Source: Candidatus Kuenenia stuttgartensis (lineage in GTDB: Bacteria > Planctomycetota > Planctomycetia > Planctomycetales > Planctomycetaceae). From it: a stretch of DNA of 64,000 nucleotides. How positions within the stretch are numbered: the first letter of the stretch is position 1; every line of letters begins with the position of its first letter. The stretch spans positions 1 through 64,000 of the forward strand of contig CAMDRI010000004.1 of assembly GCA_945906725.1 (NCBI GenBank), in the 5' to 3' direction. The notes beneath the pieces are model-generated. The model made no database searches, was not told the origin of the DNA, and was given only the letters and a program-made list of their open reading frames with translations. Position numbers and translations under genes: made by a program. Shown piece after piece: positions 1,591 to 63,712 of the stretch.

Positions 1591-1602
1591 TCAATCAACC
1601 AC

Positions 1603-4829: not shown

Positions 4830-4916
4830 CGAGCCTGATCGAGCCGAATAAACTCCGACAGCAATCTCGGCAAGTCTTCTTTACTAGCCCCCAACCCCTA
4901 GCCCCAATCCCTCCCC

Positions 4917-8270: not shown

Positions 8271-8350
8271 AAAAACGGTATCACGGCGATCGGCATTCGG
8301 CGACCGGCCGATGGCCGTGGGCTGATCGCCGTGATACCGTTTTTTGAATC
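8271..8350. repeat. Repeat family D, inverted repeat and possible terminator
   Basis: The arms 8271-8291 (AAAAACGGTATCACGGCGAT start) and 8324-8344 (ending TACCGTTTTT) are exact reverse complements. The right arm ends in a T-run, so it can act as a terminator for the prepilin peptidase gene. A near-identical stretch of more than 40 bp recurs at 58599-58643 in front of a giant gene, so this is a dispersed element. Confidence 0.85.
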
Positions 8351-8383
8351 CACAACACTGGGAATCACACGCGGGAGACCACC

Positions 8384-40588: not shown

Positions 40589-42211
40589 TTAGGGCTGCGC
40601 CTTGTCTTTCTCTTCTTCGCGACGCGGCGGGCGACCTTCCGGACGTGGTTCGGGCTTACGTTCTCCGTCTCGCGGACGATCCGCTTCCTGTCTGCGTTCA
40701 CCATCGCGAGGCCGGTCACCGTCTCGGCGAGGCTCGCCATCGCGCGGCGGTTGTCCTCGGCCTTCGGGAGGACGACCTCCCTCCTGACCTCGGTCACCTT
40801 CGCGGCGCTGCAATTGGATGCCGAAGGAGGCATCGAACCGCAGTTCCGCTGCGTCTTGTGGTCCCCCTTGTGGCGGGCCGAGCAACTCGGCGCCATCGAG
40901 CTGGCCGTCGTTGTTGCGATCCAATTCGCCGAAGACTTCCTTCAGCCGATCGAGTTCATCACGGCTGAGCCGTCCGTCTTTGTTTCGATCGAGCAATTCA
41001 AAGAACCGAGGCATCGGGCCTCGACGACCTTCTCCTTGAGGTGGACGATCTCCATCCGGGCGACGATCTCCATCCGGAGGACGATTGCCTTGGGGAGGCC
41101 GTTCGCCGAGACGACCCTCAGGACGACGATTACCGTTGCGCCGTTCGCCTTCTCGTGGGCGATCACCTTCTGGACGACGTTCGCCATCGCGCGGGCGATC
41201 ACCTTCGCGTCGAGCTTCCGGACGGTCGCCATCTGGCCTCGCTTCGGGACGGCGTTCACCATCTGGCTTGCGATCTCCTTCGCGCCGCTGTTCCCCTTCG
41301 CGAGCTTGAGCGAACGCTTGCAGATCATCCAGCGTCAGCACGTCCTTCTTCGCACGTTCAAACATCGGTCGCACGCGGTCACGGAATTGTTCTGGGATTT
41401 CTTCGAGCGTGACTTTGCCGTCGCCGTTCGTATCCATCCGTTTGAATTGCTCTTCAGGATTTTGATTCGGACGGCCCCCCGGATTTCCGGGAGCACCCGG
41501 CGGCGGGGAAAACTCGGCCATCGCGCGACCGAACTCTTCCTGGGACAGTTCATCCTTGCCGAGCTTCTCAAACACTTTGCCGAACCGTTCGCGCATCCCT
41601 TCCGGGAGTTCGTCTTTTTGCAGCTTGCCGTCGTTGTTCTTGTCGAGCCGCTTCAAGAACTCACCCTGACCGAAACCTCCAGGGCGTCCGCCAGGAGCAC
41701 CACCCGCCATTCGCTGACGCATTTGCTCAAAGTCATCGGCGGTGATCGAATCCTTGCCTTGTCGCTCCAACATATCGCGGAGGAATCGGGCCGGACCGTC
41801 TTCGGGAAGTTCCTCTTTGGACAGTTTGCCATCGTTGTTCTTGTCGAGCCGTTCGAGCATCTGCTTGAAGTCGAGCATCGGCCGGCCACCGGGGCCGCCG
41901 GCTCCGCGATCAAATCCGCCACCCTGGACCGGAGCGTCACTGCGCTTCGCGGCGGCGTCGAATTCCGCTTTCGTCAGCTCGCCGTTGTCGTCCTTGTCTC
42001 CCAACCGCACGAGCCGATCGAAGTAACGGGCTTGCTCTTCGGGAATTTCATCCGGCACCAGTTTGCCGTCACCGTTCTTGTCCAACTTATTGAACAGGAC
42101 TTCCTGGTCATTCGCCGCCGGCTTCTTCGCATCGTCCTCGGCATACGTCGCGAGCACCGGCAATCCGAGCAGCCCGGTGGCCAACAGCGCCCAAAAATTG
42201 ATCCGCTTCAT
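40589..42211 (-). CDS. Secreted multi-EF-hand protein with Arg/Asp/Gly-rich tracts
   Basis: 540 residues. Signal peptide MKRINFWALLATGLLGLPVL ends near TYA. Seven EF-hand-type loops: DKNGDGKLVPDE, DKDDNGELTKAE, two DKNNDGKL loops, DTNGDGKVTLEE, DRNKDGRLSRDE and DRNNDGQLDGAE. Between and after them are charged repeats such as RREGDRPRDGERRPEGDRP. So it should bind several calcium ions and nucleic acid, polyanion or surface ligands are possible partners. The ATG at 42211 is preferred over 42286 because the signal peptide starts there. One of its repeat units resembles the insertion in the symporter gene at 43357-44895. Confidence 0.88.
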   Translation of the reverse strand: MKRINFWALLATGLLGLPVLATYAEDDAKKPAANDQEVLFNKLDKNGDGKLVPDEIPEEQARYFDRLVRLGDKDDNGELTKAEFDAAAKRSDAPVQGGGFDRGAGGPGGRPMLDFKQMLERLDKNNDGKLSKEELPEDGPARFLRDMLERQGKDSITADDFEQMRQRMAGGAPGGRPGGFGQGEFLKRLDKNNDGKLQKDELPEGMRERFGKVFEKLGKDELSQEEFGRAMAEFSPPPGAPGNPGGRPNQNPEEQFKRMDTNGDGKVTLEEIPEQFRDRVRPMFERAKKDVLTLDDLQAFAQAREGEQRREGDRKPDGERRPEARPDGDRPEARREGDRPRDGERRPEGDRPREGERRNGNRRPEGRLGERPPQGNRPPDGDRRPDGDRPPQGEGRRGPMPRFFELLDRNKDGRLSRDELDRLKEVFGELDRNNDGQLDGAELLGPPQGGPQDAAELRFDASFGIQLQRREGDRGQEGGRPPEGRGQPPRDGEPRRDGDRPRDGERRQEADRPRDGERKPEPRPEGRPPRREEEKDKAQP

Positions 42212-42346
42212 AATGTGGTTCCTGACGAGAAGTTGACTGGGTTCGGCCCAACGGCGGGGCGTGAGCATACGGCATTCAACCCGCAATTCCAGGTGGGGTT
42301 TCGCGAGATTCTTTGCCAGGAGACACGTTTTCGAGCGTGTCCAAGG

Positions 42347-48045: not shown

Positions 48046-48834
48046 TCAACCACCAGAATGTCCGCTTCCTTTGGGATCCGACCACCGAGACAGCACCGAC
48101 GAACCGATCAGCGTGGACGCTCCGAAGATCGCGATTCCCAGCAGCGTTGAGGCGATCACCGCGGCGAAGAGCTTGGCCGTGCTGAACTGCGTCCCCTGTA
48201 AGATCATATAACCCAGGCCGTGACGTTCGGCCAGGTTTCCGGCGAAGAACTCGCCGACGATCGCGCCGACGACGGCCATCCCGCTCGACGTGCGAGCCCC
48301 CGCCACTAGAAACGGCACCGAGTGCGGCAACCGCAGCTTCCACAGCACTTGCCAGCGAGTCCCTCGGTACAGCCGAAACAGGTCGAGCAAATCAGGATCA
48401 ACCGCCAGCATTCCGGCCGTGACGTTCGTCACGATCGGGAACAGGCTGATCATGAACGACACCAGCACGATGCTGTGAAAACCGGCTCCGAACCAGACAA
48501 CGATGATCGGAGCCACCGCGACGATCGGAACCGTCTGCAAAAAAATCGCGTACGGGTAACAGCTACTCCGAATCATCCGCGACTGCGAGAACACGCAGGC
48601 GGTCAGCGAGCCGATCAACAGGCTGCTCACGAACCCACACAGTGCAGCTCCGGCCGTCAGCCCGATCGCGGTGAGTAGTTCCGAGCAGTTCTCCACCGCC
48701 GCCTGTAACACGCCACTCGGCTTCGGAACCAAAAAGGCTTTGATACCGAAGCCCATGACCACGTAATGCCACGCCGCGATCACGAGCACAAACAACACTG
48801 CCGGAGGCAACGCCACTTTGACGACTCGATTCAT
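48046..48834 (-). CDS. ABC transporter permease (SsuC/TauC/NrtB type)
   Basis: 262 residues, polytopic inner-membrane permease. The permease signature is in GARTSSGMAVVGAIVGEFFA, with YAIFLQTVPIVAVAPIIVVW before it. It should import a small oxyanion, sulfonate or nucleobase precursor; substrate not decidable. ATG 48834 overlaps the ATPase gene stop by four bases (ATGA), so translation is coupled. No substrate-binding gene is nearby. Confidence 0.93.
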   Translation of the reverse strand: MNRVVKVALPPAVLFVLVIAAWHYVVMGFGIKAFLVPKPSGVLQAAVENCSELLTAIGLTAGAALCGFVSSLLIGSLTACVFSQSRMIRSSCYPYAIFLQTVPIVAVAPIIVVWFGAGFHSIVLVSFMISLFPIVTNVTAGMLAVDPDLLDLFRLYRGTRWQVLWKLRLPHSVPFLVAGARTSSGMAVVGAIVGEFFAGNLAERHGLGYMILQGTQFSTAKLFAAVIASTLLGIAIFGASTLIGSSVLSRWSDPKGSGHSGG

Positions 48835-49769
48835 TGCGCGGCCTCCCTCAGGCAGCGGCTAACCTCACCGGTCAGCTTTGCGAACTCCAGCGTCGAACGG
48901 AGTTCCACGTTGCGCGGATGCTCGAACGGCACGGCGATATCGGCAACGAGCGTGCCGGGAGAATTGCTCATCACCAGCACGCGCTGGCTGAGAAACACCG
49001 CCTCGGAGACGTTGTGCGTCACAAAGATTCCCGTCCAGCGCTGTTCGGTCCAGATGCGGAGCAGTTCTTCGTTGAGCTGTTGCCGCAGCAAGTCGTCGAG
49101 CGCCGCGAACGGCTCATCGAGCAGCAGCAACTCCGGATGCGTGACCAGCGCTCGCGCGAGCGAGACGCGCATCCGCATTCCGCCCGAGAGCATTCGCGGC
49201 CGCTTGACCGCGTCGTCTGGCTTCAGGCCAACCAATTGGAGGCTGTTGTTGACGGCGACCTGCTGCTCGGCGAACGACACGCCGCGCAGTTCCAGCGGCA
49301 GCCGGATGTTGTCGAAGACGCTTCGCCAAGGCAGCAGGTTGGAATCTTGAAACACGAACGCGACGCGAGGATCGCCTGTGGCTATTCCCTCTCCCCCAGG
49401 AAGAGGGCTAGGGTGAGGAACCAGAGGCGTTTTAGTTTTCTCGCGCGCAGACCTCTGATGCCTGGTCGAAAATTCCCGGGCTACGTCGATCGCTTGCCGT
49501 CCCTCACCCGGCCTTCGGCCACCTTCTCCCAAAGGGAAAGGGGACGTGGCGACGCTCACTTTGAGTTCACCACCCGTCGGTAACATCAAACCGGCGATCA
49601 TCCGCAGCAGCGTCGATTTGCCGCATCCGGACGGACCGACCATCGAAATCAATTCACCGTGCGAGACCGCAAGATTCGCGTCGCGCACACCCAGTTGGCC
49701 GGATGCGAATCGCATCTCGACACCGATCGCATTGACACACAAGTCTTGCGGCAAGGGGGCTGTTTCCAA
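48831..49769 (-). CDS. ABC transporter ATPase with an inserted palindromic element
   Basis: About 312 residues. Walker A GPSGCGKST (44-52), Q-loop VFQDSNLLPW, signature LSGGMRMRVSLARAL, Walker B LLLLDEPFAALDD and switch His in VTHNVSEA. Between Walker A and the Q-loop, where the family has 10-15 residues, lie about 55 residues encoded by repeat family A (49384-49548). Upstream, the frame is open to 49868 through a family B half repeat; TTG at 49769 is the first start codon downstream of that repeat, so it is my choice, but the start is uncertain. It works with the permease at 48046. Confidence 0.85.
   Translation of the reverse strand: METAPLPQDLCVNAIGVEMRFASGQLGVRDANLAVSHGELISMVGPSGCGKSTLLRMIAGLMLPTGGELKVSVATSPFPLGEGGRRPGEGRQAIDVAREFSTRHQRSAREKTKTPLVPHPSPLPGGEGIATGDPRVAFVFQDSNLLPWRSVFDNIRLPLELRGVSFAEQQVAVNNSLQLVGLKPDDAVKRPRMLSGGMRMRVSLARALVTHPELLLLDEPFAALDDLLRQQLNEELLRIWTEQRWTGIFVTHNVSEAVFLSQRVLVMSNSPGTLVADIAVPFEHPRNVELRSTLEFAKLTGEVSRCLREAAQ
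49384..49548. repeat. Repeat family A, copy 2, inside ABC ATPase
   Basis: On the minus strand it reads ATSPFPLGEGGRRPGEG, then a variable core, then VPHPSPLPGGEG. No stop or frameshift is introduced. It lies in the loop between Walker A and the Q-loop. Confidence 0.92.
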
Positions 49770-49773
49770 TTTG

Positions 49774-49800
49774 TAGCCACGCTCGCCAGAACGTGGGCCA
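49774..49800. repeat. Repeat family B, half copy
   Basis: GTAGCCACGCTCGCCAGAAC followed by GTGGGCC, one base different from the left arm at 926-950. Placed between the giant gene end (49841) and the ATPase start. Confidence 0.85.
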
Positions 49801-49840
49801 GCCGACCTGGAACAACATTCTGGCAAAAGTCGCGACTCTC

Positions 49841-52800
49841 CTACGAGGCGGCGGCATTCTGACGGCAACTTTGCAGGACGCCAATCCCCAGCACGATGGA
49901 TGCAATCGCAAACGCCACAAAGCAGGCTTCACTGAACGGCGACGGCAGAAAGAACATGCCGAGCAATCCGAGCACGCTCAGCCCGCCGCTAAATTGGCGA
50001 CACGGAAAACCGCTCGATGAGCCGGCGATCAGCCGCAACAGCCAAACTGCGATCGAAGCCCAAATCACCGCCCACACCAAGCCGAGCCCTGACTTGTCTG
50101 ACTCATTCGACCGCACGGACAACGCCAGCCGCGGCGAACCGCTCGCGCGAGAGAACCGCAAGACATTCCCATCGCGCTGAATCTCGATGGGCAGCGACAA
50201 GCCACCGGCCTGCGTCCAGCCAGACATGCCGACAGGTTCTTCAATCAAAGCAGCAAGGGATTGCTGGTCCGCAGAGACATTAAGATTAATGGAACCAACA
50301 TTGGTCGAACCCACAACGCCCCAATTGTTGTTCACGCCAACTCCGAACGGCAATCTGCCGCTCACTGGACCACTTCCTCGGCCACCGAAGCCGCCTGGTC
50401 CTCCTCCAGCTTGACCGCCGCCACCTTGTTGGCCTCCTCCCAACGGAACCCCGTTGCGGCCTCGGCGACCGTTGGCGAGATCGGACCTTCCCATCATCCC
50501 TGCCATTCCATCAAAAAGGCCTCGCTCTCCGCCTACAGCGCCACCCATCCCTGCTGCGCCCGGTGGAGCGGGTGCGTTGGTGACGTTCGACTCACGGCTC
50601 TGCTGTTGTGGAATCGCGAACTGCTGCGCCTGCTGCTGCGCCATCTTCTCGTTGTCGACCGCTTTGTTGAGTTCGCCGAGTTGATCGACCGCTTGTTTGC
50701 GGCGATTGGCTCGATCGACTTCAGAGACACCCTTCCCGGCCGATTGCCGCGTACCTGCGGTTCGTCCTAAGGGAGCTGCACCCGGCTTCTGCGCCGCCGG
50801 CGGTGAATCCCGAGCGACATTGAGTTTGAACTTCAGGCCGCTGTCCAAACTGGTGCCGGGAGCGCCTGCTCCCAGGAGCGAGTCCGTGACATTGCTGAGA
50901 TTCAGCACACCGTCACCGTTCCGGTCTTCGCCGGGGTCGAGCACTCCGTTGCCGTTCAAGTCCTCCCCGTTGCTGATGACCGCCGAGTTGCCGAAGAACA
51001 GGTCGCGGTTGTTGTCGGCCACGATCTGGCGCTGGAAGCCTCCCCCTTGCTGACCCCCTTGGCCGAAGAAGAGTTTGCTGTTCACGTTGGCCTTGGCTTC
51101 GCGTTGCGCGGCGAGAGCTTGAGCCGCCTGCTGCTGATCCTTCGCGACATAAAAATTCGACCCGCCATCCGTCTGCTCGATGATGATGCGGCTTTCGAGG
51201 TCGGCATTCTTCGCGTCGAACTCCTGCAGCGATTCCGCCAGCTTGCGCCCTTCTTCCGACTGCGGCGCGGAACCCGGGCCGATGCCGGATCGATTGTCGT
51301 AGTTGTGCAGCGCCAGTCCGAGTTGCTTGAGATTGTTCCGAGCCTGCCACTTCTGCGAACTGGGATTATTCCCTTCAATAACGCGAATCAACTCGTTGGC
51401 CTCTTGCAGCCACGTCGAGCGGTACGTCACGTCGACCGCGTCCGCATCTTGCCGATTCAAATTGTGCCGCAACGGATCGTTGACCTCTTTTGCCGACCAC
51501 TCCTTCGGGACATGCACGGACCACAGTGTCCGCGCGATGGGGATGCCGAATTCCTTGTCGTCCGAAAGGGACACGACGTTCGCGGTCGGCAATTCGAATT
51601 CTTGAGCCCAGACTTTCAATCCGCGCGGCAAAGCCCCGGTCGACAGCCGGCCGCTCAGCACGAGCTTCACCTGGAACGACAGGTCCGCTTCGCTGGTCTT
51701 GGGCAGTGCAATGAGCTGGTAAGTCTTGCCCTCCTTCTTGAGCTCCAACAGTCGCGCCGGTTGATCCGCGACGAAGACCGATAGTGCCTGCGACTTCGTC
51801 GGCAGTTGCAGAGCTAGAAACTGCCGCGAACGATTCTTGATCGTGTAAACGCACTGCATCCGCCAGGTGCCATCGGCCGCAAGCACCGTCGTCAGGTCCG
51901 CGAGGTTCACCGATGCGGCGGCACCCGCTTGGGCGGCGAATGACTTCAAAGACCATCTCGGCGCGGCGACTTCTGCATTCTGATCACTGATCTCTGGCCT
52001 CTGACCTCTGATTCGCAGCACGGCCGTTGCCTGGTCGACGAGATGCTGATCGACGACGATCGGCAACTCGTCGCGCTGCACGGCTTCTCCCACTTCGCCG
52101 ACGGGCGCGAGTTGATTCGCGCTGATGTTGATGACCACCACGTACTGCCTTTGCGTGTCGAGCGGCGAGAACGGCGACGCTTCTTGCCCGTCGACGGCCG
52201 GCGCGGCGGCTGTGTCACCGTCGATCAAGACGGCCCGCTCAAAAGTGATCGTCGGTGCGGTGACTTCGCGCTTCTCAGCCGGTGGTGGCAGCGTCGCTGT
52301 CGCCAACAAGAAATACCGCGCCCCAGCCGGATCTTGCAGCGCGACCGTCCAGCGCGTGCGACCGCTTCCCTCACCGGCCGATGCAAATGATGTCTGCCGA
52401 ATGCCAGCCCCTTGGAAATCCAGTTTCCCCGCCAGCCAGTCGGGAGTCGTGAACGTGAACGTGTCAGACGCGGCTTCGGCAATCTTCCACTGCAACGCCA
52501 ACGAGTAATCGACCGCCGTGTCCGAGACCGTCACCAGCGTGACTGCATCGGCCGACAGCTTCGGCACCGCGCGAGCCAAATCAAAACCGAGCACCTCCGG
52601 CATCACCACGTTCGACGTGAACACGAACTTTGTCGGCCGGCTGAGCTTGCTGCGCAGCTCTTCGCTGCAATGCTCCGGATCGGATGTCTTCCAAGTGTTG
52701 AAGCTGCTGACCGTCGCCTGATACGCCGGATCGAACCAGACCGCCGCTTGCGTCACCAACTTGCTGAGCTCCAACGGTGTCGGCGCGGTAATCTCGGCAA

Positions 52801-55800
52801 TCGCATCCTCCGGTTCCTTTGCGACGTTCCCTTGCAATATGACCTCAACCGCTCCGATGCGTGGCTCGGTGAATTCGACTGTCAGGACGTTCGTCGCCGG
52901 ATCAATGTGCCAGTCTTGCAGAGCCGTCGCATCGACATCGACTGGCAACCACATCGGCGGCAACTGCACGCTGACGCTCGACCGCAGCGCTCCCGCCAAC
53001 TCCCATCGCAGACGAGACGACATCCGCACCTTGCGACGTTCCACAATCAGCGCGTGTTCCGCGAAACCGGTCGATTCTGGCGCTCGGCGTTGAGCCGAAA
53101 AGCTGATCTCAAACGGCCGCTGCGTGTACCGGAACGCCGACAACGGTGCCCCCATTCCAATCCATGAAGCCCCCGCCTGCATCGCGAACTGATTCGCGTT
53201 GATCTGCGCCAGCCCTTTTGTCGCGACGTTTTTCACTGCGAACTGCGGCGCTGCAAACAACCCCACGATTCCGAAGTCTCGCGAGACCGCCAACGGAGCG
53301 AACGTCGGCAACTTGATCGCCACCGCCTCGTCGGCCACATGAGTCTCCAGGAACAGGTCAAACCCCAGCGAAGTTTGATCGCCGACCGCACGCCGCAAGA
53401 AGACGCGCAACACACGGCCATCGACGTTCTCGCCGAGTTCCCAGCCGCCCACATCCGGCCCGCCGATCGAGCGAACCTTCAATTCCTTCGGCAGAGAGAA
53501 CGAGACATCATTGATTGCTCCGCGCGGCACCTTGAACTGCCAGCCGGAAACGATTCGTACTCCCGCATCTTCAACCTGCACCGCTGTCTGTGAATCCGCT
53601 TGCACGATGGCATCGACCGCCCCCGCTGCTTGCTTCGGCTGCCAAGCGAGCCGAATTTCGCCCCCCGCGCTGATCGGAACCTCGAAGTAATTTGTAGGAT
53701 GAGCACTCTTCCCCGTCCGGTCTTTATCTTCCGTCGTCGGATTCTTTGAACCGTTCGGGGCGGGCAAGAGTGCCCAGCCTACGTCACCACGACGCATCCG
53801 AAACGAATTGCTGGCCCCATTCACTCGAAACGACACGTCCTCCGTCGGCGGGATGAACAGCAGCTTGCCGCTCGGCAGCGGATCGATACCGATCACCAAT
53901 TGCCCGGCCGGGCCTTGCTGATTCACCGGCACCTCGGCCGTCAGGTCGAGCACATGCAGTCCCGGCTTATCGATCACGACATGCAATCGCGTCGTACCGT
54001 TCTCGTCGCGCACGACCAACGCCGCCGGGGCCTCATCCAACTTCGCTTCACTGAGCGACGCCAACCGTAGCGGGATCGGCAGCACAATTTGTTGTTTGCG
54101 AAAACTGAACAGCGTGATCCGCGCTGTGACCTTCGCCGTCGCGTCAGGTCCGTCCACTTTCTTGTTCGGAGCGACCACAACCAGCGCCTCGGCCACGAGT
54201 CCGTCTTGCGGGGCAGGGGGAGTGACTCGCGATTCGGGATGTGCCGCATTCCAGAGTTCGACGAACTTCGCGTGCGGCAGATACACCCGCTCGGCAGCGA
54301 GCGGATCTTTCGGATCGTCGAACGGAAAAATGATCGTCGGCCGCACGGGAATATCGGGATTCGGATTGACCGCCGGCGCGACCGCCGGTCTCTGAACTTG
54401 CGGCGCTTGAGCGAACGCCGAGTTGGCCGCAAGGAACGCAAAGAGACACAAAGAGGCGGTGCGGCGAGTCAGCGATCGTGTCCAGAACGCTTTCGTTTTC
54501 ATGCGCGGCCACGCGCTGGCGAGCGACTCGCCCGCCGCGCGGAGCGTCCACAGTGCAATCGCGGCAACGGTGCCGAAGAAGATTCCGTCGAGCGTGTTCT
54601 GCCACGCCAGCGGCGCGATCGCGGCCAGAGCCAACGGCAACGTCAGTCCCAGCGCGGCCCAACTGGCTTTGAGAGTCCGCCGATTCGGAGGGAGCAGCCA
54701 CGCCAGGAACGCCAACGCCGCGATCCACACGACTCGCCCGGTCCAGCCCATTGCGCGATTCTCGTAAACCAGATCCAGCCCAATCCCGTTCGCGGCCGTC
54801 TCCGTGCCGAGATATCGAAACTTCTTGGTGGCCGCCCCGTTCTGCGATTCCAACGCCATCGTCAGCGACAAGAGCCCGCCACGTTCGCCGCGACGATTCA
54901 TTTCGTCGATGAGCTTCTGCACGCCTTCGATATCTTGTTCGTTGCCGCGAAGGATAAGGACGTCATCTATGTCCTTGACGCTCACGTAGCCCTTCAAGGG
55001 GGAGCCGGCAATCCTTACGGGATCGGATTTTGAGTCGGACATCTCATCGCGAAGTCCGCGTGAGTCGCGGACTTTCGAGGAGAACCCTTTTTTCGCGAAC
55101 TTATCGTCCGCTTTTCTTGTCGCCGCTTCCTCGACCAGTTTTTGGTTGAGTTGTGCCTGTATCTCAGGCAACGACTCTGATGTCGGAGGCATGTCAGTGG
55201 CCATCGGCGTCATCGCTTGTGGGGCCGCCATCGGCGCGCTCGTCACTCCGGCCGGAGCGGTCGCTGCAACTTTGCTCGGCTCGGCAAAGAACGTTGCCTT
55301 GTCGTCCGCGACTTCAGACCGGTCGTACAACATTTCGGTACCACCACTCACATCAATTTTCCATTTCAGTCCGGCGGCATTGCGCGCGGATTGCACCGAC
55401 GGAGCTACGTTGACCCACAGGAAGGAGCCGATTCCAAAAAGCACGATGGGAGCCACGACGCCTCGTTTCCAGCCCCAACGGAATAGCGACCAGATAATGG
55501 CGACGATCGCCAGTACCAGCACGAGGGCCGAGGCCATCCGAATGATGTTGCGAACGCTCGGCGGCGACAGCGACTTCGGCAGGTTGCTCAGCCAATCGCT
55601 ACGGTCGAGCGGGGTGGCGGGGTCGGGAACAAAAACTCCTTGGCTGTCGGTCAGCAGCAGGTCGGGCGGGTAACGCAGTTCCCATTGTTGGTCGAGCATC
55701 TGCATCGGCTGCGACACGCCGGCTCCGCTGAGCACCGTCAACTCTGGCGGCGGCTGACGCAACTCGCCCGTGCCGCGCAGCGCCGGCACGTTCGTCCGAT

Positions 55801-58585
55801 AGAACAACTGCAACGACCGCTCGGCCGCCGGATTGTCGCTCGGCCGCAACGGGATCAGGAACGCACCGTCGGCTCGGCGAACTTCAACCGGCAGGCCATC
55901 GACGAGAGCGGCCCAGAGATCGGCGGATTGTCGTTTGTCCGGCCCCCTCTCCCCTTGGGGGAGGGCTGGGGTGAGGGATCCGGACGTCGTTTGACCGTCG
56001 GTCGCGGAGTTTACCTTGTTCGTCTTCGTGAGGTTTGTGGAGCGCTCGGTTCCCTCACCCGACCTTCGGCCACCCTCTCCCAAGGGGAGAGGAGACGTGG
56101 CGGAGTCGAACTTGATTCGCAGGCTTTGCACTCCGACGGCGGTGAATTGAAACGTCGCTTGATGCTGGAACTCGCCGGCGGGGCTGAGCACGCTGTTGAT
56201 CGAGGCGACTCGGCAGATCGCGGTCGGCACCGGCAGGCGATCGAAGCGTTCGTCGGCGATAGCGATGTTCGGAGCGCCCGCGAAATAGCGATACGCGGCG
56301 ACGATGCGCTGGCTCGGTGAGTAGGCCAGCGGAGCGGGAAGGTCTATCGGATCGACTTCGGGGAGGTTCGTTTTGTTACCGTCTTGAGCGGTGATCGTGA
56401 GCCGCTGATCGCCCTCGGCTTCGATGGAGATGAAACCGTTCTGGCGGTCGGCTTGGATGATGCGGAGATGTGAGAGTTGCTCCGTAGGATGGTCCGCATT
56501 CGGCGGATTGCCCGTCCCTGCGTTCCCTTCATCCGGTCGGGCAGGAGTGCCCAACCTACGCGCGGAGACGCTCGTCACCACCAGCGTTGTTGTCCCGACC
56601 AAATGCCGATCCAGACGCAGCGTCCAAATCAATTCGCCGTTCTCGCCGGGCTTCGATGTCTGTTCGACGATGCGGGCGGAAGAATCTGAAATTTGAAATC
56701 TCAAATCCTTGCCGGCGGATTCCGCCAACGCGACTTCGAGCACTCGCAGGCCGCCACCGGTGATCGTCAGGTCCGACTCGAAGTGCGCGTGCAGCGTTTT
56801 TTTGTCGAGCCGCGCGAACGTCAGTGTGCGAGCGGCGATTCGCGACGGTTTGCGTTCGATCTTCAGCGTGCCGCTGAATCGGGTGCCTTGGTACTCAAAG
56901 CCGAGCCGTGCTCCAGGGACCGGCACGTTTGTCGGGTCGAGTCCGCTGATCTCGCCGGGTAAGACAACGAGGTCCGCGTCGGCCTTGATCACGTACGTCC
57001 CTTCGGAGACGGACGACTGAGGCAGTCGCAACTCCGGCAGAGTCACATCGACTGGCTTGTCCTCGACCGGCCAGCCGTCGGGGTCGCGGTGTGCTCGGAC
57101 TTCGAGCTTTGCCTGCTGACCCGGTCGCAACGGCTGCGGCAACGGAATGCGAATGTGATTGATCCCCGGCTCGTCCTCTTTTGTGCGCACCTGCCACGGC
57201 AACGGCTGACCGTTGACCGAGACCGCCGTCAGCAACCACTCGGCCGGTAGCGAGACTTCCAATTCAAACAGCGGAGCGAATGACGTTTCCATCGTCGCGG
57301 CGGTGATCAGGTCGAGGCCCGTCGCAGTCAGATCGAAGATCGACGAGATGCTCGCCTGCACGTCCTGCTCTTTCGGCTGCGCGACGAAGCCCAGCGAGAA
57401 ATCTTCCTTCCAGACATCAAACAGCAGCGCGACTTGCCCGGCATCGGTCGCACCCTCCGTGCCGATGGATTTCAGATAGGCCTCGTTGACCGTCGCCGTC
57501 CGCACACCGACTGACTCAACTGTCCGCAGTCGCACGGCCGGAGCGTGTTGCACGAGTGCTCGGCCAATGTGCGACGTGATTTGATTGATCTTCAACGTCG
57601 GAACACGCCACGACTCTCCGGCCGGCACTGCCATCACGCCACGAAAGTCGATCCGCCGCAAACCGTCAAGCGGCTGCCGATAATTCAACGTGATCCGCGT
57701 CGAGTTCGCATCCTCGGGATGATCGGACAACTCCCACGCTTCGAGTCCGTTGGAATCGACATCGGTGATCTCCAACGTCTTCGGCACAACGCAGACCAGC
57801 CGGTCGAGCGGCGTGCCATGCACCTGCAATGCTGTGACCGCGTGCCAAGTGATCTCGCCCGGAGCGACTCGCAACCCGAAACCCGTTGTCGCAAACAGCA
57901 GCGAATCGGTCGCGCGCTCGCGTTGCCGATCGGTGAGCTGAATCGCCACCGCGTTCCGCTTCCCGCCGACCGCCAGTTCATAATTTGCCGGCTGATCGTT
58001 CGCCGTCGGCCGCTCGACGCTCAGCCCATCGAGTTGCAAATGTTTCCCCGCCGGCACCGCAATCTTTAACGTCGCCGCGATCCCCGGCAGCACTCCGACC
58101 GACGCGACCTTGTCCACACCGACCGCCGACAACGGCGTCGAAAGTTCAAGCGTCAACGTGTGCTCGCCGTGCGTGTCGCTGAGCAAGAACAACGTCTGAT
58201 CGTTGCGACCCAATTTCGCCGACTGCCCGTTGAGCTTCGCGCCCTCGACCGCCATCGCTCCGAACGGCAACGGCAACGCCTGCCACGACTCGGCAAGGTG
58301 ACTGATTTTGATTGTGGCCTGAATGACCAGTTGCTCGCCCTCAAACTTCGCCGCATACGTCGCTCCCGAAATCATCGCCCCGATCGGAGCAGTAGTCTTG
58401 GTCGGCGCATTCTTCTGGGCGTCGCGATACAGCTTGAGAAATTCATCGCGAGGCAACAGCACGCCTCGCTGGTCCTTCGCGATCACCGTATCGAGTTCTT
58501 CCACCGGCACGAACACGCGACGAGCTTCAACCTCCTGGGCAGCCATCGGGAACCAACAAATCAGTGCCAAAAGCAGAGCGATCAT
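49841..58585 (-). CDS. Giant two-module envelope protein
   Basis: 2914 residues, not recognised as a named family. A signal peptide MIALLLALICWFPMAAQ starts it. Module 1 (ARRVFVPVEELDTVIAKDQ, ISGATYAAKFEG) spans about 1-1000, then membrane helices near 1010-1060 and 1270-1370, with an N1/secretin-like segment (VLILRGNEQDIEGVQKLIDE) between. An internal signal-like stretch (SLCLFAFLAANSAFA, about 1375-1390) opens module 2 (VYLPHAKFVELWNAAHPES), homologous to module 1. Later come a DUF1559-like NNLKQLGLALHNYDN (about 2415), a Ca-type loop DLNGNGVLDPGEDRNGDGVL, a Gly-rich tract and C-terminal helices. The signal peptide decides the start at 58585; the frame is open to 59164. It contains several in-frame repeats. 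Confidence 0.75.
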   Translation of the reverse strand: MIALLLALICWFPMAAQEVEARRVFVPVEELDTVIAKDQRGVLLPRDEFLKLYRDAQKNAPTKTTAPIGAMISGATYAAKFEGEQLVIQATIKISHLAESWQALPLPFGAMAVEGAKLNGQSAKLGRNDQTLFLLSDTHGEHTLTLELSTPLSAVGVDKVASVGVLPGIAATLKIAVPAGKHLQLDGLSVERPTANDQPANYELAVGGKRNAVAIQLTDRQRERATDSLLFATTGFGLRVAPGEITWHAVTALQVHGTPLDRLVCVVPKTLEITDVDSNGLEAWELSDHPEDANSTRITLNYRQPLDGLRRIDFRGVMAVPAGESWRVPTLKINQITSHIGRALVQHAPAVRLRTVESVGVRTATVNEAYLKSIGTEGATDAGQVALLFDVWKEDFSLGFVAQPKEQDVQASISSIFDLTATGLDLITAATMETSFAPLFELEVSLPAEWLLTAVSVNGQPLPWQVRTKEDEPGINHIRIPLPQPLRPGQQAKLEVRAHRDPDGWPVEDKPVDVTLPELRLPQSSVSEGTYVIKADADLVVLPGEISGLDPTNVPVPGARLGFEYQGTRFSGTLKIERKPSRIAARTLTFARLDKKTLHAHFESDLTITGGGLRVLEVALAESAGKDLRFQISDSSARIVEQTSKPGENGELIWTLRLDRHLVGTTTLVVTSVSARRLGTPARPDEGNAGTGNPPNADHPTEQLSHLRIIQADRQNGFISIEAEGDQRLTITAQDGNKTNLPEVDPIDLPAPLAYSPSQRIVAAYRYFAGAPNIAIADERFDRLPVPTAICRVASINSVLSPAGEFQHQATFQFTAVGVQSLRIKFDSATSPLPLGEGGRRSGEGTERSTNLTKTNKVNSATDGQTTSGSLTPALPQGERGPDKRQSADLWAALVDGLPVEVRRADGAFLIPLRPSDNPAAERSLQLFYRTNVPALRGTGELRQPPPELTVLSGAGVSQPMQMLDQQWELRYPPDLLLTDSQGVFVPDPATPLDRSDWLSNLPKSLSPPSVRNIIRMASALVLVLAIVAIIWSLFRWGWKRGVVAPIVLFGIGSFLWVNVAPSVQSARNAAGLKWKIDVSGGTEMLYDRSEVADDKATFFAEPSKVAATAPAGVTSAPMAAPQAMTPMATDMPPTSESLPEIQAQLNQKLVEEAATRKADDKFAKKGFSSKVRDSRGLRDEMSDSKSDPVRIAGSPLKGYVSVKDIDDVLILRGNEQDIEGVQKLIDEMNRRGERGGLLSLTMALESQNGAATKKFRYLGTETAANGIGLDLVYENRAMGWTGRVVWIAALAFLAWLLPPNRRTLKASWAALGLTLPLALAAIAPLAWQNTLDGIFFGTVAAIALWTLRAAGESLASAWPRMKTKAFWTRSLTRRTASLCLFAFLAANSAFAQAPQVQRPAVAPAVNPNPDIPVRPTIIFPFDDPKDPLAAERVYLPHAKFVELWNAAHPESRVTPPAPQDGLVAEALVVVAPNKKVDGPDATAKVTARITLFSFRKQQIVLPIPLRLASLSEAKLDEAPAALVVRDENGTTRLHVVIDKPGLHVLDLTAEVPVNQQGPAGQLVIGIDPLPSGKLLFIPPTEDVSFRVNGASNSFRMRRGDVGWALLPAPNGSKNPTTEDKDRTGKSAHPTNYFEVPISAGGEIRLAWQPKQAAGAVDAIVQADSQTAVQVEDAGVRIVSGWQFKVPRGAINDVSFSLPKELKVRSIGGPDVGGWELGENVDGRVLRVFLRRAVGDQTSLGFDLFLETHVADEAVAIKLPTFAPLAVSRDFGIVGLFAAPQFAVKNVATKGLAQINANQFAMQAGASWIGMGAPLSAFRYTQRPFEISFSAQRRAPESTGFAEHALIVERRKVRMSSRLRWELAGALRSSVSVQLPPMWLPVDVDATALQDWHIDPATNVLTVEFTEPRIGAVEVILQGNVAKEPEDAIAEITAPTPLELSKLVTQAAVWFDPAYQATVSSFNTWKTSDPEHCSEELRSKLSRPTKFVFTSNVVMPEVLGFDLARAVPKLSADAVTLVTVSDTAVDYSLALQWKIAEAASDTFTFTTPDWLAGKLDFQGAGIRQTSFASAGEGSGRTRWTVALQDPAGARYFLLATATLPPPAEKREVTAPTITFERAVLIDGDTAAAPAVDGQEASPFSPLDTQRQYVVVINISANQLAPVGEVGEAVQRDELPIVVDQHLVDQATAVLRIRGQRPEISDQNAEVAAPRWSLKSFAAQAGAAASVNLADLTTVLAADGTWRMQCVYTIKNRSRQFLALQLPTKSQALSVFVADQPARLLELKKEGKTYQLIALPKTSEADLSFQVKLVLSGRLSTGALPRGLKVWAQEFELPTANVVSLSDDKEFGIPIARTLWSVHVPKEWSAKEVNDPLRHNLNRQDADAVDVTYRSTWLQEANELIRVIEGNNPSSQKWQARNNLKQLGLALHNYDNRSGIGPGSAPQSEEGRKLAESLQEFDAKNADLESRIIIEQTDGGSNFYVAKDQQQAAQALAAQREAKANVNSKLFFGQGGQQGGGFQRQIVADNNRDLFFGNSAVISNGEDLNGNGVLDPGEDRNGDGVLNLSNVTDSLLGAGAPGTSLDSGLKFKLNVARDSPPAAQKPGAAPLGRTAGTRQSAGKGVSEVDRANRRKQAVDQLGELNKAVDNEKMAQQQAQQFAIPQQQSRESNVTNAPAPPGAAGMGGAVGGERGLFDGMAGMMGRSDLANGRRGRNGVPLGGGQQGGGGQAGGGPGGFGGRGSGPVSGRLPFGVGVNNNWGVVGSTNVGSINLNVSADQQSLAALIEEPVGMSGWTQAGGLSLPIEIQRDGNVLRFSRASGSPRLALSVRSNESDKSGLGLVWAVIWASIAVWLLRLIAGSSSGFPCRQFSGGLSVLGLLGMFFLPSPFSEACFVAFAIASIVLGIGVLQSCRQNAAAS
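51977..52018. repeat. Family F short repeat in giant gene
   Basis: GATCTCTGGCCTCTGACCTC-type units, translated IRGQRPEISDQNAE. Related to the nadC copy at 42673-42708. Confidence 0.7.
53694..53783. repeat. Repeat family C, in-frame copy in giant gene
   Basis: Arms GTAGGATGAGCACTCTTCCC and GGCGGGCAAGAGTGCCCAGC. Translated as VGWALLPAPNGS and DRTGKSAHPTN. A second in-frame copy at 56484-56560 is read in another frame. Confidence 0.88.
55941..56098. repeat. Repeat family A, copy 3, in giant gene
   Basis: On the minus strand ATSPLPLGEGGRRSGEG, core, then SLTPALPQGERG. The second arm is read in a different frame from copies 1 and 2. No stop is introduced. Confidence 0.92.
56484..56560. repeat. 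Repeat family C, second in-frame copy in giant gene
   Basis: Arms GTAGGATGGTCCGCATTCGG and GGGCAGGAGTGCCCAACCTA. Translated as ARRLGTPARPDEG and PPNADHPTEQLS. The frame of the arm differs from that at 53694-53783. Confidence 0.85.
56683..56706. repeat. Family E short string in giant gene
   Basis: GAATCTGAAATTTGAAATCT followed by CAAA, translated DLRFQISDS. Same ATCTCAAAT-type string as in mutL and the asparagine-synthase-like gene. Confidence 0.65.
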
Positions 58586-58586
58586 G

Positions 58587-58690
58587 GCTTTCCCGAAAGC
58601 CGATGGCCGTTTGCTGATCGCCGAGATACCGTTTTTTGAATCCTCGCAAAACGGCATTACGGCGATCGGCTGTCGGCTGGCAGAGATCGG
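58587..58690. repeat. Repeat family D, copy in front of giant gene
   Basis: Contains CGATGGCCGTTTGCTGATCG then CCGAGATACCGTTTTTTGAA, nearly identical to 8310-8350. It ends just upstream of the preferred start at 58585, and the giant frame is open through it. It may carry or hide the true ribosome site (CGGGAAAG). Confidence 0.82.
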
Positions 58691-58711
58691 CCAGAACCGT
58701 CGTGCCGAGGT

Positions 58712-58828
58712 CAGGTCTTCAAATTTCAATTTTGGTTTCCCGATCATGGACTGACTCTCTTCCCACGCGAAACGGTCGAACAATCTGAGGTTGAGTTCGT
58801 GGCGCCAAAATTGAAATTTGAAGACCTG
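58712..58828. repeat. Perfect 24-bp inverted repeat upstream of giant gene
   Basis: 58712-58735 (CAGGTCTTCAAATTTCAATT start) and 58805-58828 are exact reverse complements, with 69 bp between. It lies in the gap between the two giant genes and could form a long stem, a terminator or operator, or be a small element. The 69-bp core contains an ATG that is in frame with the giant gene (58747). Confidence 0.9.
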
Positions 58829-58845
58829 ACTCCTGACCGATGGGA

Positions 58846-61800
58846 CTACGAACCGGATTCGGGTGGCGGGCTGACGGTGGCTGGGAACGGTTGCGACCAA
58901 TCGAAGCGGTTGCCGTTCGATTTTCGTACCGCTCCGAAGAGCGACTGGACCATCCACAACGCGAACATCAAGACAACGCCCCAGCGAGCCGCGGCGACTC
59001 CGTGCAGAACCGTGTCCGCGTCGTTGAGTCCGGCACAGACGGCGATCAATACTCCGGCCAAGACCCAACCGAGCCGGTTGCGCCACGTCGTCGGAATCAG
59101 CACGACCCCCAGCACGAACAGCGAAATCGTCGCCACGATCGCGGCGAAGCTGACCTTCCACCACGTCACTTCCAGATATTCCGCGCCGCCGAGATTGTGG
59201 AACGAGTACGCTTGCCCCTGTGTCGCGAAGTCAGCAACACCAACGGAGGACGTGCCGATCCATTGATCGAGTTCGCTTTGATTGACCCCCGAAGAGACCT
59301 GACCGTCGATCGCTCGCTTGAGCGTCAGGTGCTGCTCGCGAATGAACAGGTTCGGCGTGCCGACGAGCGAGAACTTCTCCGGCACCCAGACGACCGTTCG
59401 GAGTTGTTGGATCGCGACGGCAGCCCCCTTCGGGCCGCCGATTCGCGGTAGCGAGACTCGCAGATTTCCAAAGTTGAGCGCGAATGGTTTCGGATTGATC
59501 GGCCACAGGAATTGCAGTGTGACCGAGAACGGCTCATCCGACTTCCCGCCGCGTGCGACGCTCACAAAATAACTGTCGAACGCATCGTCCGAGCCTTTGC
59601 CCGCCTTCTCCGGCGAGACCGATTTGTTGTCGACGAGCACGCCAAGAATCTCCGCTCCCTTTGGCAAGTCGATGCGGAGTCGTTGTCGCTCGCTGGTCTT
59701 AAGCTTGAAGCGGCAGCGGTACGACGCCTTGTCGTCTTGATCGACGACGACCTCGACCAGCCCGCGCGAGACAACCGTCTCGACCACTTCCTGAATCTCG
59801 TGCTTCGCGGCAGACACTTTCAGAGACACTGGCTGCGAGTAATACCGATAGGCCAGCGAGCCATCCTGCGACAGCAGCGACAACTCGCGCGGATCAATCG
59901 CTTCGAGCACATCGCCTGCTGCGTCGGCCGAGACCGTCAACGCCTTGTCCTTCTGAACCGTGACCTCTCCGTAGACGTCGGATAACTCGACCTTGCCCGC
60001 CTTCGATTCTCCGTCGCCGGGCAGACCGACTGCACGAACCGGCTTGAGTTCCTGTTGCCACGAGAGCGTCGATCCGGCCTTCTTGTCCTGCCCATCGCCC
60101 CCCAGTCCTTGCCCCTCAGCCATTTTCAAGTCGTAGGTGATCTCGAACGGCACATCGCCGACCGCCTCGCGTTGCAGGATGATCGTCCACGTGACCCAAC
60201 CCTCGACCGCATTCTCGGCTTTCTTCTTTTCTTTAATCGCGGGAACCGTCGCTCCCTGAGCCATCCGAATTTGCACCGCATCGGCCAGCGCTTCGGGGAC
60301 CGCGATTTGGAACGTGTCGAGCCCCGCGAACTGGACGTGATACGTCACTGTCGTGCGGACGTCGGCTGTCTCCGGCTTCGCATTCAGCAACGTCGCCACT
60401 GATGCCGTCAGCCGAGTTGGCCGTCGAGTCGTCTTCACCGGAATCTCGACTGGCCGCCGCGTGAACGACCACGCCGACGCGAGCGTCCCACCCGCAACGA
60501 AAGGTGGGTTTGGATCGGCGTTGCGTTCCGGTTGCACGCCCTTGATCGCCTTCTCGTCAGAGAGCACTTCGATCGCGGGTGCCGCGAAGATCGCCACCTG
60601 ACCGGTCTCACGTTCGACGTTCAACGGTTCGAGCAACGGCAGCGTCAGGTTCTGTTCCTTCGCCGTCGCGTCGAGCGTCACATGCCCGACGATGTTGAGC
60701 TCAATCGCCCCTTCACGTTTCATGTCGAGCACGACACGCAACACGCTGCCGCCGTCTTTGGTCTCGACGGTGTGTTCTTTGACGAACGGGCCGACGACGC
60801 TGTCGATCTTCAAGCCGTCCGGCACGCGCAATTGCAGATCAAACAGCCCGGCTCGCTCGACCGTGTAGTTCAACTGTGTCAGCGACCGCAGTTCGTCGTC
60901 GAGGAATTGCAGCCGCGCGACATGATTCACCAGCACGCGCGGCTCAACCGCTTTCGCGGTCAACTTGAGTTCGACCTTCGGCGAATAAAACTTGTACGCC
61001 AGCGAACCGGGGCGGCGAATCTGTTCCGCGACTTCCGCCTCTTCGATGCGAGTCAATCCCGTGAGCTTCTCGACATTCAGCAACAGATCGGCACCCTTCG
61101 CGACGACAAGCTGCCCGCTTTCACGCACGACATCGAGAGCATGAATCCCCGCCGCCGGAGCATTTTCGTTCAGACCAACCACAGCAAACGCCTCGGCCGG
61201 TGCAGGTCGCTCCGTGTGAACTTCGAGCGTCAGTACTTTTTTCGCTCCGCTGAGCAACTCGATGGTGACGACTTGCCGAGTCGCTTCGTCGGCCGCTTTC
61301 CATCCTTTGACATTCGCATCGTTGGAGGAGACGCCGAGAATGCGATCTCCCTTAGGCACGGCGACTCGCAACTGAGTCAGTTCGCCGCGCAACACGTCGT
61401 ACCGCAAGAAAGCATCGGTGTGGATCAGGCCGTCGGCCACCGACACCTGCGTGTGATTCGTGACGCTGGCGAGCAAATCCATTTCTGGTTTGATGCTCGC
61501 TTTGGGATGCCACAATACTCCGATGCGGCTCGCTGCGCCGAGGTTGCCGGCGATCTTGGTCTCTTTGCCCTTCGGGGCTTCCACCGGCTGCCGCACGAGC
61601 AGCGGAGTGACCTCGACCGCTTGATCCGCTTCGGGAATCAGCAATTCGAAATTCGTGACGCCAACGGCCGGGACTTCGAGATCGAAACTTTTGCCATCCG
61701 GTGACGACCGTACCCGCACGGCAAGCTGGATCTTCACCTTGTGTTCGCCCGGCGTCGGAAACAGCAGCGAATACAGGCCGTCGCCAGTCGCTCGCAGCAG

Positions 61801-62316
61801 GACTTTCTCTTTCGCGTCGGCTCCGCCGTCGCTGGTCACTTCGCCGACCGCCGCGTCGCCGAACTTCAAAGGTAATTCGGACCACACCTTGCCGAGCACT
61901 CGCACCGAGTACTCCGCCTCGATCCGAGCGACATCCCGATCGATCCTGCCGCGATAGTTGGCAACTGAAATCACGGCGGCCACTGGCGGTTGTCCAACCT
62001 GCTCACCGGATTTGTTCCAGAGCTTGCGGTACTCGGCATACGACATGAACACGGTCGCCTTCTGCTTCTCGAAGACCGTGCTGAGTTGCTTGTACGGCAC
62101 GTAAATGAGCTGTTCCCAAGTGACCTGCGGATCGTCCTTGGGTTTTGCAGGTTCGGCGGCTTCCTGGGCAAACGCTTGTAGCGTCGGAGGACTGCTCGAA
62201 AGTCCGGGCAGGATTGAGCTAACCGCTGACCAGCCCAGCAGCAAAAACAAAATCGTGCGGATCGAAGTGCCTCGCAGATGGAAAGTCGCGAGAAATCGTG
62301 AGTTCCGAACGCTCAT
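58846..62316 (-). CDS. Large envelope protein, single module related to the giant neighbour
   Basis: 1156 residues. Signal peptide (LFLLLGWSAVSSILPGL) ends near QAFAQ. The mature N-terminus QVTWEQLIYVPYKQLSTVFE, FMSYAEYRKLWNKSGE, AAVISVANYRGRIDRDVARI matches both modules of the 2914-residue neighbour. A beta-rich body (LTRIEEAEVAEQIRRPGSL and similar) ends in two or three membrane helices (SFAAIVATISLFVLGVVLIP, GVVLMFALWMVQSLFG). Function unknown. ATG 62316 has AAGGAC upstream and precedes the signal peptide. The tandem arrangement implies a duplicated planctomycete envelope family. Confidence 0.8.
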   Translation of the reverse strand: MSVRNSRFLATFHLRGTSIRTILFLLLGWSAVSSILPGLSSSPPTLQAFAQEAAEPAKPKDDPQVTWEQLIYVPYKQLSTVFEKQKATVFMSYAEYRKLWNKSGEQVGQPPVAAVISVANYRGRIDRDVARIEAEYSVRVLGKVWSELPLKFGDAAVGEVTSDGGADAKEKVLLRATGDGLYSLLFPTPGEHKVKIQLAVRVRSSPDGKSFDLEVPAVGVTNFELLIPEADQAVEVTPLLVRQPVEAPKGKETKIAGNLGAASRIGVLWHPKASIKPEMDLLASVTNHTQVSVADGLIHTDAFLRYDVLRGELTQLRVAVPKGDRILGVSSNDANVKGWKAADEATRQVVTIELLSGAKKVLTLEVHTERPAPAEAFAVVGLNENAPAAGIHALDVVRESGQLVVAKGADLLLNVEKLTGLTRIEEAEVAEQIRRPGSLAYKFYSPKVELKLTAKAVEPRVLVNHVARLQFLDDELRSLTQLNYTVERAGLFDLQLRVPDGLKIDSVVGPFVKEHTVETKDGGSVLRVVLDMKREGAIELNIVGHVTLDATAKEQNLTLPLLEPLNVERETGQVAIFAAPAIEVLSDEKAIKGVQPERNADPNPPFVAGGTLASAWSFTRRPVEIPVKTTRRPTRLTASVATLLNAKPETADVRTTVTYHVQFAGLDTFQIAVPEALADAVQIRMAQGATVPAIKEKKKAENAVEGWVTWTIILQREAVGDVPFEITYDLKMAEGQGLGGDGQDKKAGSTLSWQQELKPVRAVGLPGDGESKAGKVELSDVYGEVTVQKDKALTVSADAAGDVLEAIDPRELSLLSQDGSLAYRYYSQPVSLKVSAAKHEIQEVVETVVSRGLVEVVVDQDDKASYRCRFKLKTSERQRLRIDLPKGAEILGVLVDNKSVSPEKAGKGSDDAFDSYFVSVARGGKSDEPFSVTLQFLWPINPKPFALNFGNLRVSLPRIGGPKGAAVAIQQLRTVVWVPEKFSLVGTPNLFIREQHLTLKRAIDGQVSSGVNQSELDQWIGTSSVGVADFATQGQAYSFHNLGGAEYLEVTWWKVSFAAIVATISLFVLGVVLIPTTWRNRLGWVLAGVLIAVCAGLNDADTVLHGVAAARWGVVLMFALWMVQSLFGAVRKSNGNRFDWSQPFPATVSPPPESGS

Positions 62317-62722: not shown

Positions 62723-63712
62723 ATGGCTGACCCGCGCATCAATCTGAAGAACCCCAATGTGGCGGCCGTGTTGGCGTTTCTGATTCCCGGACTTGGCCAT
62801 TGGTATCAAGGTCGTCGTTTCAAGGCAGCGATCTATTCGATCTGCGTTTTGGGGACGTTCTGCTGGGGGCAGGCGATGGCGGAATGGAAGGGGGTCTACT
62901 TCCGCTGGCAGGAATTCGAAGGCCAAAATCGCTTTCGTACGAGGGACCGCACCATCGGATACCTGTCCCAAGTCTTGGTGGGATTGCCGTCACTACCGGC
63001 CATCATTCAGTGGCGGCGGTACTCCAGCGACGATGCCGATGGACGCGACTTCACGAAGTTGGATGGTCCCATCGACGCAGCGTTTGATGGGTATGCGAAA
63101 TTGGATTCTGTGAATGATGCCTGGGAGGGTCCGGTCACTGGCCAAATCCAATTGTCGCCGGACGATTCCGGAGCACGAGGCTTCGGACAAGATGTTCGCG
63201 GACACTTCCGCGGCAAGTTGACCGGAGACGCGCCCCGCGATGTCGAATTCGATGTCGCCGGATTGCTTACGATTGCTCCCAAGTTGTTGGGCAATGGCAA
63301 CGTTACCATCACGATTGATGGAAAAAATCGAGCAAAAGAATATTCGAGTTCGAAGCGTCTTCTTCGTTGTCGCATCGTGACGAAACGCGGCGAGTTCGAT
63401 GCTCCGATGGGCGAACTTGAGGGGACGATTCCAAGAGCGTTCATGGACTGGTATCAAGTTCCGCTCGAGGACGACGCCGTTCAGGGGATGAATCGGCGAC
63501 TCGGTCGGCGGTACGAGATCGCCTTGTTGTTCACCTGGGTCGCCGGACTGTTGAACTTGCTGGCGATTTGGGATGCCTACGAAGGTCCGGCCTACGGTTA
63601 CGGCGACGAGGTCGATCAATCAGAGGGACAACCTTCAACTGCGCCGCCCGCCACGGCGATTCCGACTCCCGTTGCTGCCGCGGTTTCGGCGACTCCTGTG
63701 CCGAGTTCGTGA
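62723..63712 (+). CDS. Membrane protein resembling DUF6677
   Basis: 329 residues. NPNVAAVLAFLIPGLGHWYQ begins a TM2-like pair of helices and then QVLVGLPSLPAIIQWRRY, with a large central beta-rich domain (VEFDVAGLLTIAPKLLGNG) and a C-terminal helix (LFTWVAGLLNLLAIWDAYEG). I recall the N-terminal NPNxAALLAxLxPGxGHxYQGR pattern in planctomycete DUF6677 proteins, but cannot confirm it. Pro/Ala-rich tail. Paired with the small membrane protein 66 bp later, divergent from the large envelope protein. Confidence 0.72.
   Translation: MADPRINLKNPNVAAVLAFLIPGLGHWYQGRRFKAAIYSICVLGTFCWGQAMAEWKGVYFRWQEFEGQNRFRTRDRTIGYLSQVLVGLPSLPAIIQWRRYSSDDADGRDFTKLDGPIDAAFDGYAKLDSVNDAWEGPVTGQIQLSPDDSGARGFGQDVRGHFRGKLTGDAPRDVEFDVAGLLTIAPKLLGNGNVTITIDGKNRAKEYSSSKRLLRCRIVTKRGEFDAPMGELEGTIPRAFMDWYQVPLEDDAVQGMNRRLGRRYEIALLFTWVAGLLNLLAIWDAYEGPAYGYGDEVDQSEGQPSTAPPATAIPTPVAAAVSATPVPSS

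Follow-up and report, generated by a model that had tools for sequence, protein, structure and literature searches.

The described systems closest to the one reported here are the extracytoplasmic function (ECF) sigma factors with membrane anti-sigma partners (PF04542, PF08281, PF13490) and the vWA 'force transducers', YfbK-like vWA proteins that are tethered to the inner membrane through a single helix and a long linker, were reported in Planctomycetes beside tolQ/tolR-like genes and in many cases carry an SHLS membrane motif (PMC12204202). We analysed a 64,000-nt stretch of a metagenome-assembled planctomycete genome (contig CAMDRI010000004.1, positions 1 to 64,000; hereafter the window), in which two giant genes on the minus strand, A and B, fill positions 49841-62316. 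R. baltica RB11769, a very large planctomycete gene of unknown function (PMC2754498), is mentioned only as context for giant genes in the phylum. The conserved pair A+B has no named family, and neither protein gave anything above the cut-off in Pfam or NCBIfam scans. A and the two halves of B (B1 and B2) appear to be three ancient copies of one bead-on-a-string, membrane-anchored protein. We tentatively propose, at somewhat less than an even chance of being right, that they would form a three-subunit, inner-membrane, periplasm-facing complex acting as the envelope partner of an ECF sigma / vWA anti-sigma circuit; that the parts belong together is well supported.

BLASTP with composition-based statistics off aligned A with the first half of B at E=9e-23 over ~850 columns and with the second half at E=2e-12. 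In hhalign comparisons of the family profiles the three modules matched each other at 1e-51 or better, approximately (A-B1, E=3.6e-51, 931 columns; A-B2, E=7e-57, 863 columns; B1-B2, E=5.7e-51, 850 columns), whereas a reversed B2 profile used as control gave E=0.43, which excludes that the halves of B are alike only by chance. Pairwise identity among the modules is low (18-22%). The original prediction, made from the sequence alone, had described one tandem family built from a shared starting module, and the family extends well past that module: A, B1 and B2 can be aligned across 850-931 columns, and the start motif covers only the first ~100 residues of a homologous unit of ~950 residues that corresponds to the whole ectodomain. 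Self-comparisons with hhalign revealed internal repeats of about 175 residues within this unit.

Among genomes of the window's family with a completeness of 90% or more, 51 of 56 carry gene A; it was also found in 97 of 294 genomes sampled across the phylum, a lower bound since one profile was used. A scan of 84,980 species returned 58 matches, all of them in Planctomycetota (the profile searches having been made within the phylum), consistent with the earlier suggestion of a planctomycete-specific system. In 50 of the 58 scan loci, which are those holding both genes, A is followed immediately by B in the same orientation, and the pair is also carried by Thalassoglobus neptunius KOR42, a cultured member of the window's family; tblastn against plasmids gave no match. 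The window's own genome contains a second, paralogous pair, A'B' (L151), whose parts best match their positional counterparts (A-A', 2e-55; B1-B'1, 5.5e-47; B2-B'2, 2.3e-32). In a FastTree analysis of 62 modules with long branches flagged, A, B1 and B2 formed separate groups phylum-wide, the exception being the A'B' rows with their long branches; labels changed 9 times on the tree, compared with 32.4 times in shuffles. Because the three groups stay separate across the phylum, the triplication is ancient and older than the spread of the family.

Two distant lineages encode the modules as three separate adjacent genes (A 1128, B1 1237 and B2 1138 aa in L143; A 1202, B1 1419 and B2 1470 aa in L148), the second gene falling in the B1 clade and the third in the B2 clade. 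In two close relatives (L065 and L067), inserted DNA splits B just before its internal signal-like segment, and the downstream part retains both the frame and the signal segment; these are metagenome assemblies, and two separate ones agree. The latter splits are recent fissions; the halves of B occur as separate genes in L143 and L148 and, secondarily, in L065 and L067, an arrangement that had been suggested as a check. The proposed origin of B by fusion of two former genes is thus borne out as far as its two single-module units are concerned, and needs correcting as to age: most sampled lineages have the fusion, the A'B' paralogues included, and the fused state therefore looks old. In L136 (positions 1600-5457) a normal A-B pair is followed immediately by a third, B1-type gene (1286 aa), probably a recent lineage-specific duplication.

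Outside the window's family and the A'B' paralogues, the scope in which vWA loci were counted, a vWA-domain anti-sigma-like membrane protein adjoins A/B in 13 loci, and this link to ECF sigma / vWA anti-sigma genes is a new context for the pair. A vWF_A-VWA-YfbK_C protein is encoded directly upstream in 12 of the 13; in the remaining locus (L160:10415-14999) the genes for an ECF sigma factor and a zf-HC2-VIT-vWA protein of 1343 aa run divergently to A/B, VIT-vWA being the architecture of inter-alpha-trypsin heavy chains. An ECF sigma factor gene accompanies the vWA protein in 8/13 loci, so that eight lineages hold A/B, ECF sigma factor and anti-sigma-like protein in one locus. The genes overlap in G067 (-4, -4 and -4 nt) and are separated by small gaps in most other loci, with 860 nt in G062. 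The linked gene is the only YfbK_C gene of the genome in six cases, each from a different family (G121, G174, G189, G252, G261 and G200), and chance adjacency is estimated at ~1 in 2000 per genome, roughly two places in a genome of several thousand genes being next to A/B. Hydropathy predicts a membrane segment near residue 100 of the linked vWA proteins; Pfam recognised zf-HC2 in three of them (L156, 5.7e-8; L160, 1.2e-6; L150, weak, 0.002), and an HxxxCxxC motif was seen in the N-termini at four loci. The position, the membrane segment and the three zf-HC2 matches together suggest an anti-sigma role. Frames of ~1100 aa beside B in L144, L150 and L156, considered as diverged copies of A, are vWA proteins instead.

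Like known ECF anti-sigma partners, the A/B-linked protein would combine an anti-sigma-like N-terminus with a predicted membrane helix; unlike them, its predicted periplasmic part is a YfbK-type vWA (or VIT-vWA) region and the last genes of the cassette encode giant membrane proteins with beta arrays, and the window itself is without the sigma/anti-sigma part. The likeness to the vWA force transducers (PMC12204202) lies in the YfbK-type vWA with a membrane segment, whereas the A/B-linked proteins start with an anti-sigma-like domain and adjoin A/B. No tolQ/tolR-like genes were recognised among the recurring A/B neighbours, which were not exhaustively scanned, and SHLS was not seen in the membrane segments of three linked vWA proteins inspected in full.

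The features of the two genes are arranged as follows.

58846-62316, minus strand: gene A, 1156 aa, with a signal-like segment, a beta-sandwich array and three C-terminal membrane helices; same frame in relatives.
59362-61977, minus strand: A ectodomain, residues about 114-985, predicted as about five beta-sandwich domains of ~175 aa (AlphaFold2 and hhalign repeats).
58918-59154, minus strand: C-terminal helices of A, residues 1055-1072, 1078-1098 and 1100-1133, predicted membrane anchor (hydropathy and model).
49841-58585, minus strand: gene B, 2914 aa, with homologous modules B1 and B2; putative start at M194 of the open frame.
55637-58516, minus strand: B1 ectodomain, residues about 24-983 (hhalign to A and B2).
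55403-55537, minus strand: predicted first membrane helix pair of B, residues 1017-1061 (hydropathy); homology to A reaches about here.
54521-54748, minus strand: second hydrophobic cluster of B, residues 1280-1298 and 1309-1327, before the junction (hydropathy).
54407-54448, minus strand: internal signal-peptide-like segment of B, residues 1380-1393, CLFAFLAANSAFAQ, aligned in relatives.
51476-54334, minus strand: B2 ectodomain, residues about 1418-2370 (hhalign to A and B1).
51284-51346, minus strand: DUF1559-like core motif RNNLKQLGLALHNY of B, residues 2414-2434 (PF07596, E=0.004, below the cut-off).
49874-50080, minus strand: predicted membrane helices at the C-terminus of B, about residues 2836-2904 (hydropathy).

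A 45-nt repeat at 58599-58643, immediately before the probable start of gene B, is 93% identical to a distant stretch of the window at 8307-8351 and lowers the likelihood that B starts further upstream.

The N-terminus of A carries a signal-like segment at residues 21-39 and AFA-Q at 48-51, and the junction of B reads, in order, a K/R-rich stretch (RMKTKAFWTRSLTRR), a hydrophobic run and AFA-Q. This internal segment was judged by position, as the hydropathy test could not separate a signal peptide from membrane helices, and its strict AxA form is found in 31 of 46 relatives' B proteins. The second hydrophobic cluster of B has a third segment at about 1337-1355, assigned by eye, which brings the number of hydrophobic segments upstream of the junction to five; such an odd number (the fifth being the one assigned by eye) would bring the chain back to the cytoplasmic side, which an internal signal sequence requires. 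Since predicted alpha-helical membrane bundles lie at the C-termini, hydropathy points to A and B as inner-membrane proteins with their arrays towards the periplasm. Where membrane helices were expected, towards the ends of both proteins, hydrophobic segments do occur, as they do in mid-B, and the signal-like segment placed near residue 1380 of B lies at 1380-1393 and is alignable in relatives; the term 'surface system' is doubtful, as helical bundles indicate the inner membrane, and 'envelope system' would be more apt. Taken as a whole, the original prediction is partly upheld, in its tandem family and its two-unit B, and needs revision in the age of the fusion, in the word 'surface' and in the statement that no function can be given, on which the ECF sigma / vWA anti-sigma operon context of other lineages improves.

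In the arrangement we propose, A, B1 and B2 would be paralogous subunits of one envelope complex, each exported by a signal sequence, each placing a ~five-domain array in the periplasm and each anchored in the inner membrane by the helices after the array. B would be translated as one chain whose internal signal sequence re-exports the second module, and signal peptidase may cut it at that point to give B1 and B2 in equal amounts. vWA is a protein-protein interaction domain, and that of the anti-sigma-like protein would most likely dock on the beta-sandwich arrays, and the assembly, ligand or tension state of the complex would set whether the sigma factor is held or released. In the window's own family the sigma/vWA genes next door would have been lost, or were never there. 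The most complete form of this proposal, a phylum-wide, Planctomycetota-specific three-subunit complex with two subunits from a polyprotein cut at an internal signal peptide that serves as a sensor-scaffold read by a vWA anti-sigma factor, we consider doubtful.

Several observations weigh against this arrangement. Neither the window nor its family nor the A'B' operons fetched showed a sigma/vWA neighbour; upstream of A in that family lies ParA in 4 loci, and upstream of A' in the A'B' pairs lies inositol monophosphatase in 7. Only a minority of the non-family loci have the sigma/vWA linkage, no separate A was recognised in six of the sigma/vWA loci (L144, L149, L150, L156, L157 and L159), and the HxxxCxxC zinc motif is missing from part of the anti-sigma-like N-termini. 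In addition, 15/46 B proteins are without the strict AxA form of the internal segment, and the topology derives from hydropathy only.

The operon evidence also supports a reading with the order of control reversed, in which A/B would be an output and not a sensor: a structural envelope scaffold, such as a periplasm-spanning or wall-associated skeleton, that the ECF sigma factor switches on under envelope stress, with the vWA anti-sigma protein sensing something else. The near-universal occurrence of A in the window's family without an adjacent sigma gene fits a housekeeping structural role. So does the residue conservation: glycine, proline, tryptophan and arginine/glutamate make up most of the columns that are fully conserved, with no catalytic set of residues seen among the conserved columns of the A/B family alignments, and the predominance of structural residues suggests a structural rather than enzymatic role. 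The strict adjacency of the vWA gene, together with its being the sole such gene in six genomes, suggests however more than shared regulation, and we regard the output reading as rather unlikely.

Another connection is offered by DUF1559 (PF07596, also SBP_bac_10), of which planctomycetes have very large numbers of proteins. B of L054 includes a DUF1559 domain at residues 1018-1163 (E=1.9e-19), and against the PF07596 cut-off of 23.3 bits the scores are 71.2 for L054, 28.4 for L052 (E=2.2e-6) and 24.4 for L049 (E=3.6e-5), with 17.5 for the window's B; other B proteins, the window's included, have a 20-30-residue piece of the core motif after B2. The window also contains a DUF1559 pseudopilin-like gene with an N-methylation motif at 1606-2895 (PF07596, 6e-45), a 42-nt stretch of which is 76% identical to the gene B motif at 51297-51338. 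The DUF1559 domain inside B, the motifs after B2 and the pseudopilin-like gene in the window would accord with A/B being part of a type IV pilin-like assembly or secretion machine whose beta arrays hold or guard pseudopilin-like proteins. This is improbable: the whole domain occurs in one lineage only, where it makes up <10% of B, the window's B has a 21-residue scrap, and pilin assembly genes do not recur beside A/B. No prepilin-type N-methylation motif was matched in A or B by Pfam or NCBIfam. The pieces may mark a functional tie to pseudopilin-like proteins, or they may be fragments captured from an abundant, 70-copy gene family, as P. limnophila has 68 DUF1559 members, more than in any other of its paralogue groups, two of them essential (PMC10632474).

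AlphaFold2 modelling of A from 43 sequences (predicted local distance difference test (pLDDT) 79.5, predicted TM-score (pTM) 0.46) gave an all-beta region at residues 114-985 followed by three helices, and the two central domains (residues 430-770) modelled alone reached pLDDT 87.6 and pTM 0.70. By this model, each of the three ectodomains would be an array of about five beta-sandwich domains. A Foldseek search with the A model returned ribophorin I/Ost1 as the best match (E=2.5e-10 for full A, 3.3e-8 for the domain pair), followed by integrin alpha legs, PIG-T, M1 aminopeptidase N-domains (LTA4H) and inter-alpha-inhibitor, with PIG-T and LTA4H matched by the domain pair; the fold search of BFVD gave weak, general beta-sandwich matches only. 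On the strength of these matches A/B could be accessory subunits of a membrane enzyme whose beta domains hold substrate, their counterparts being ribophorin I/Ost1 of oligosaccharyltransferase and PIG-T of GPI transamidase. The TM-scores are at most 0.36, low because domain orientation differs; A and B gave no sequence match to these proteins in Pfam (for ribophorin I/Ost1, to E=1) or in the PDB sequence profile search, and no glycosyltransferase was recognised among the recurring neighbours. The resemblance of A to Ost1/ribophorin I, the M1 aminopeptidase N-domain, VIT and the integrin alpha leg lies in structure only, as tandem beta-sandwich domains of similar size, and A differs in having five domains rather than two and a three-helix anchor rather than one. 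No peptidase match for the zinc-binding catalytic domain of M1 aminopeptidases was obtained for A or B in Pfam or NCBIfam. We read the Foldseek matches as a common fold class, not kinship, and consider an accessory-subunit role very improbable. TolA matches of B in the PDB sequence profiles were discarded, as they are located in a glutamine/alanine-rich coiled region. That the module similarity is a composition artefact of two unrelated giant genes with a convergent beta-rich make-up, as the low pairwise identity might suggest, has next to no chance against the reversed-profile control and the persistence of the A, B1 and B2 clades through the phylum.

Neighbours of the pair in the window were considered and rejected as partners. 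The ABC transporter ATPase and permease genes (48046-49868) adjoin A/B only within the genus, and the same is true of the DUF6677 (TM2-like) membrane protein, encoded at 62723-63712, which adjoins A and is divergently transcribed. An interspersed inverted-repeat element reading SPLPLGEGGRRSGEG...LTPALPQGERG has copies at 49380-49543, 55938-56094 and 19618-19764 of the window; it runs in frame through two genes, the ABC ATPase gene and gene B (residues about 831-883), and is absent from most relatives of B. The mid-linker of gene B, roughly at 54890-55010, reads VSVKDIDDVLILRGNEQDIEGVQKLIDEM and by eye resembles a secretin-type N1/NolW repeat; Pfam gave no match for this stretch, and the other aligned B proteins are without it. 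Elsewhere in the window, a 565-aa protein encoded at 40589-42286 combines numerous EF-hand motifs with a long, basic tail rich in proline and arginine.

Planctomycetes have an unusual, FtsZ-less envelope, and A+B, which lie outside the Pfam and NCBIfam families, are among the largest conserved gene pairs of a phylum whose envelope biology is poorly explained. The fused gene B here, with its internal signal-like sequence, and the separate genes in other lineages make the family a natural case for the study of gene fusion, gene fission and polyprotein export. Through the operon link to an ECF sigma / vWA anti-sigma pair, what was only a giant protein of unknown function gains a signalling hypothesis that can be tested and, if the sensor-scaffold proposal is true, the complex would represent a new architecture of bacterial cell-envelope surveillance.

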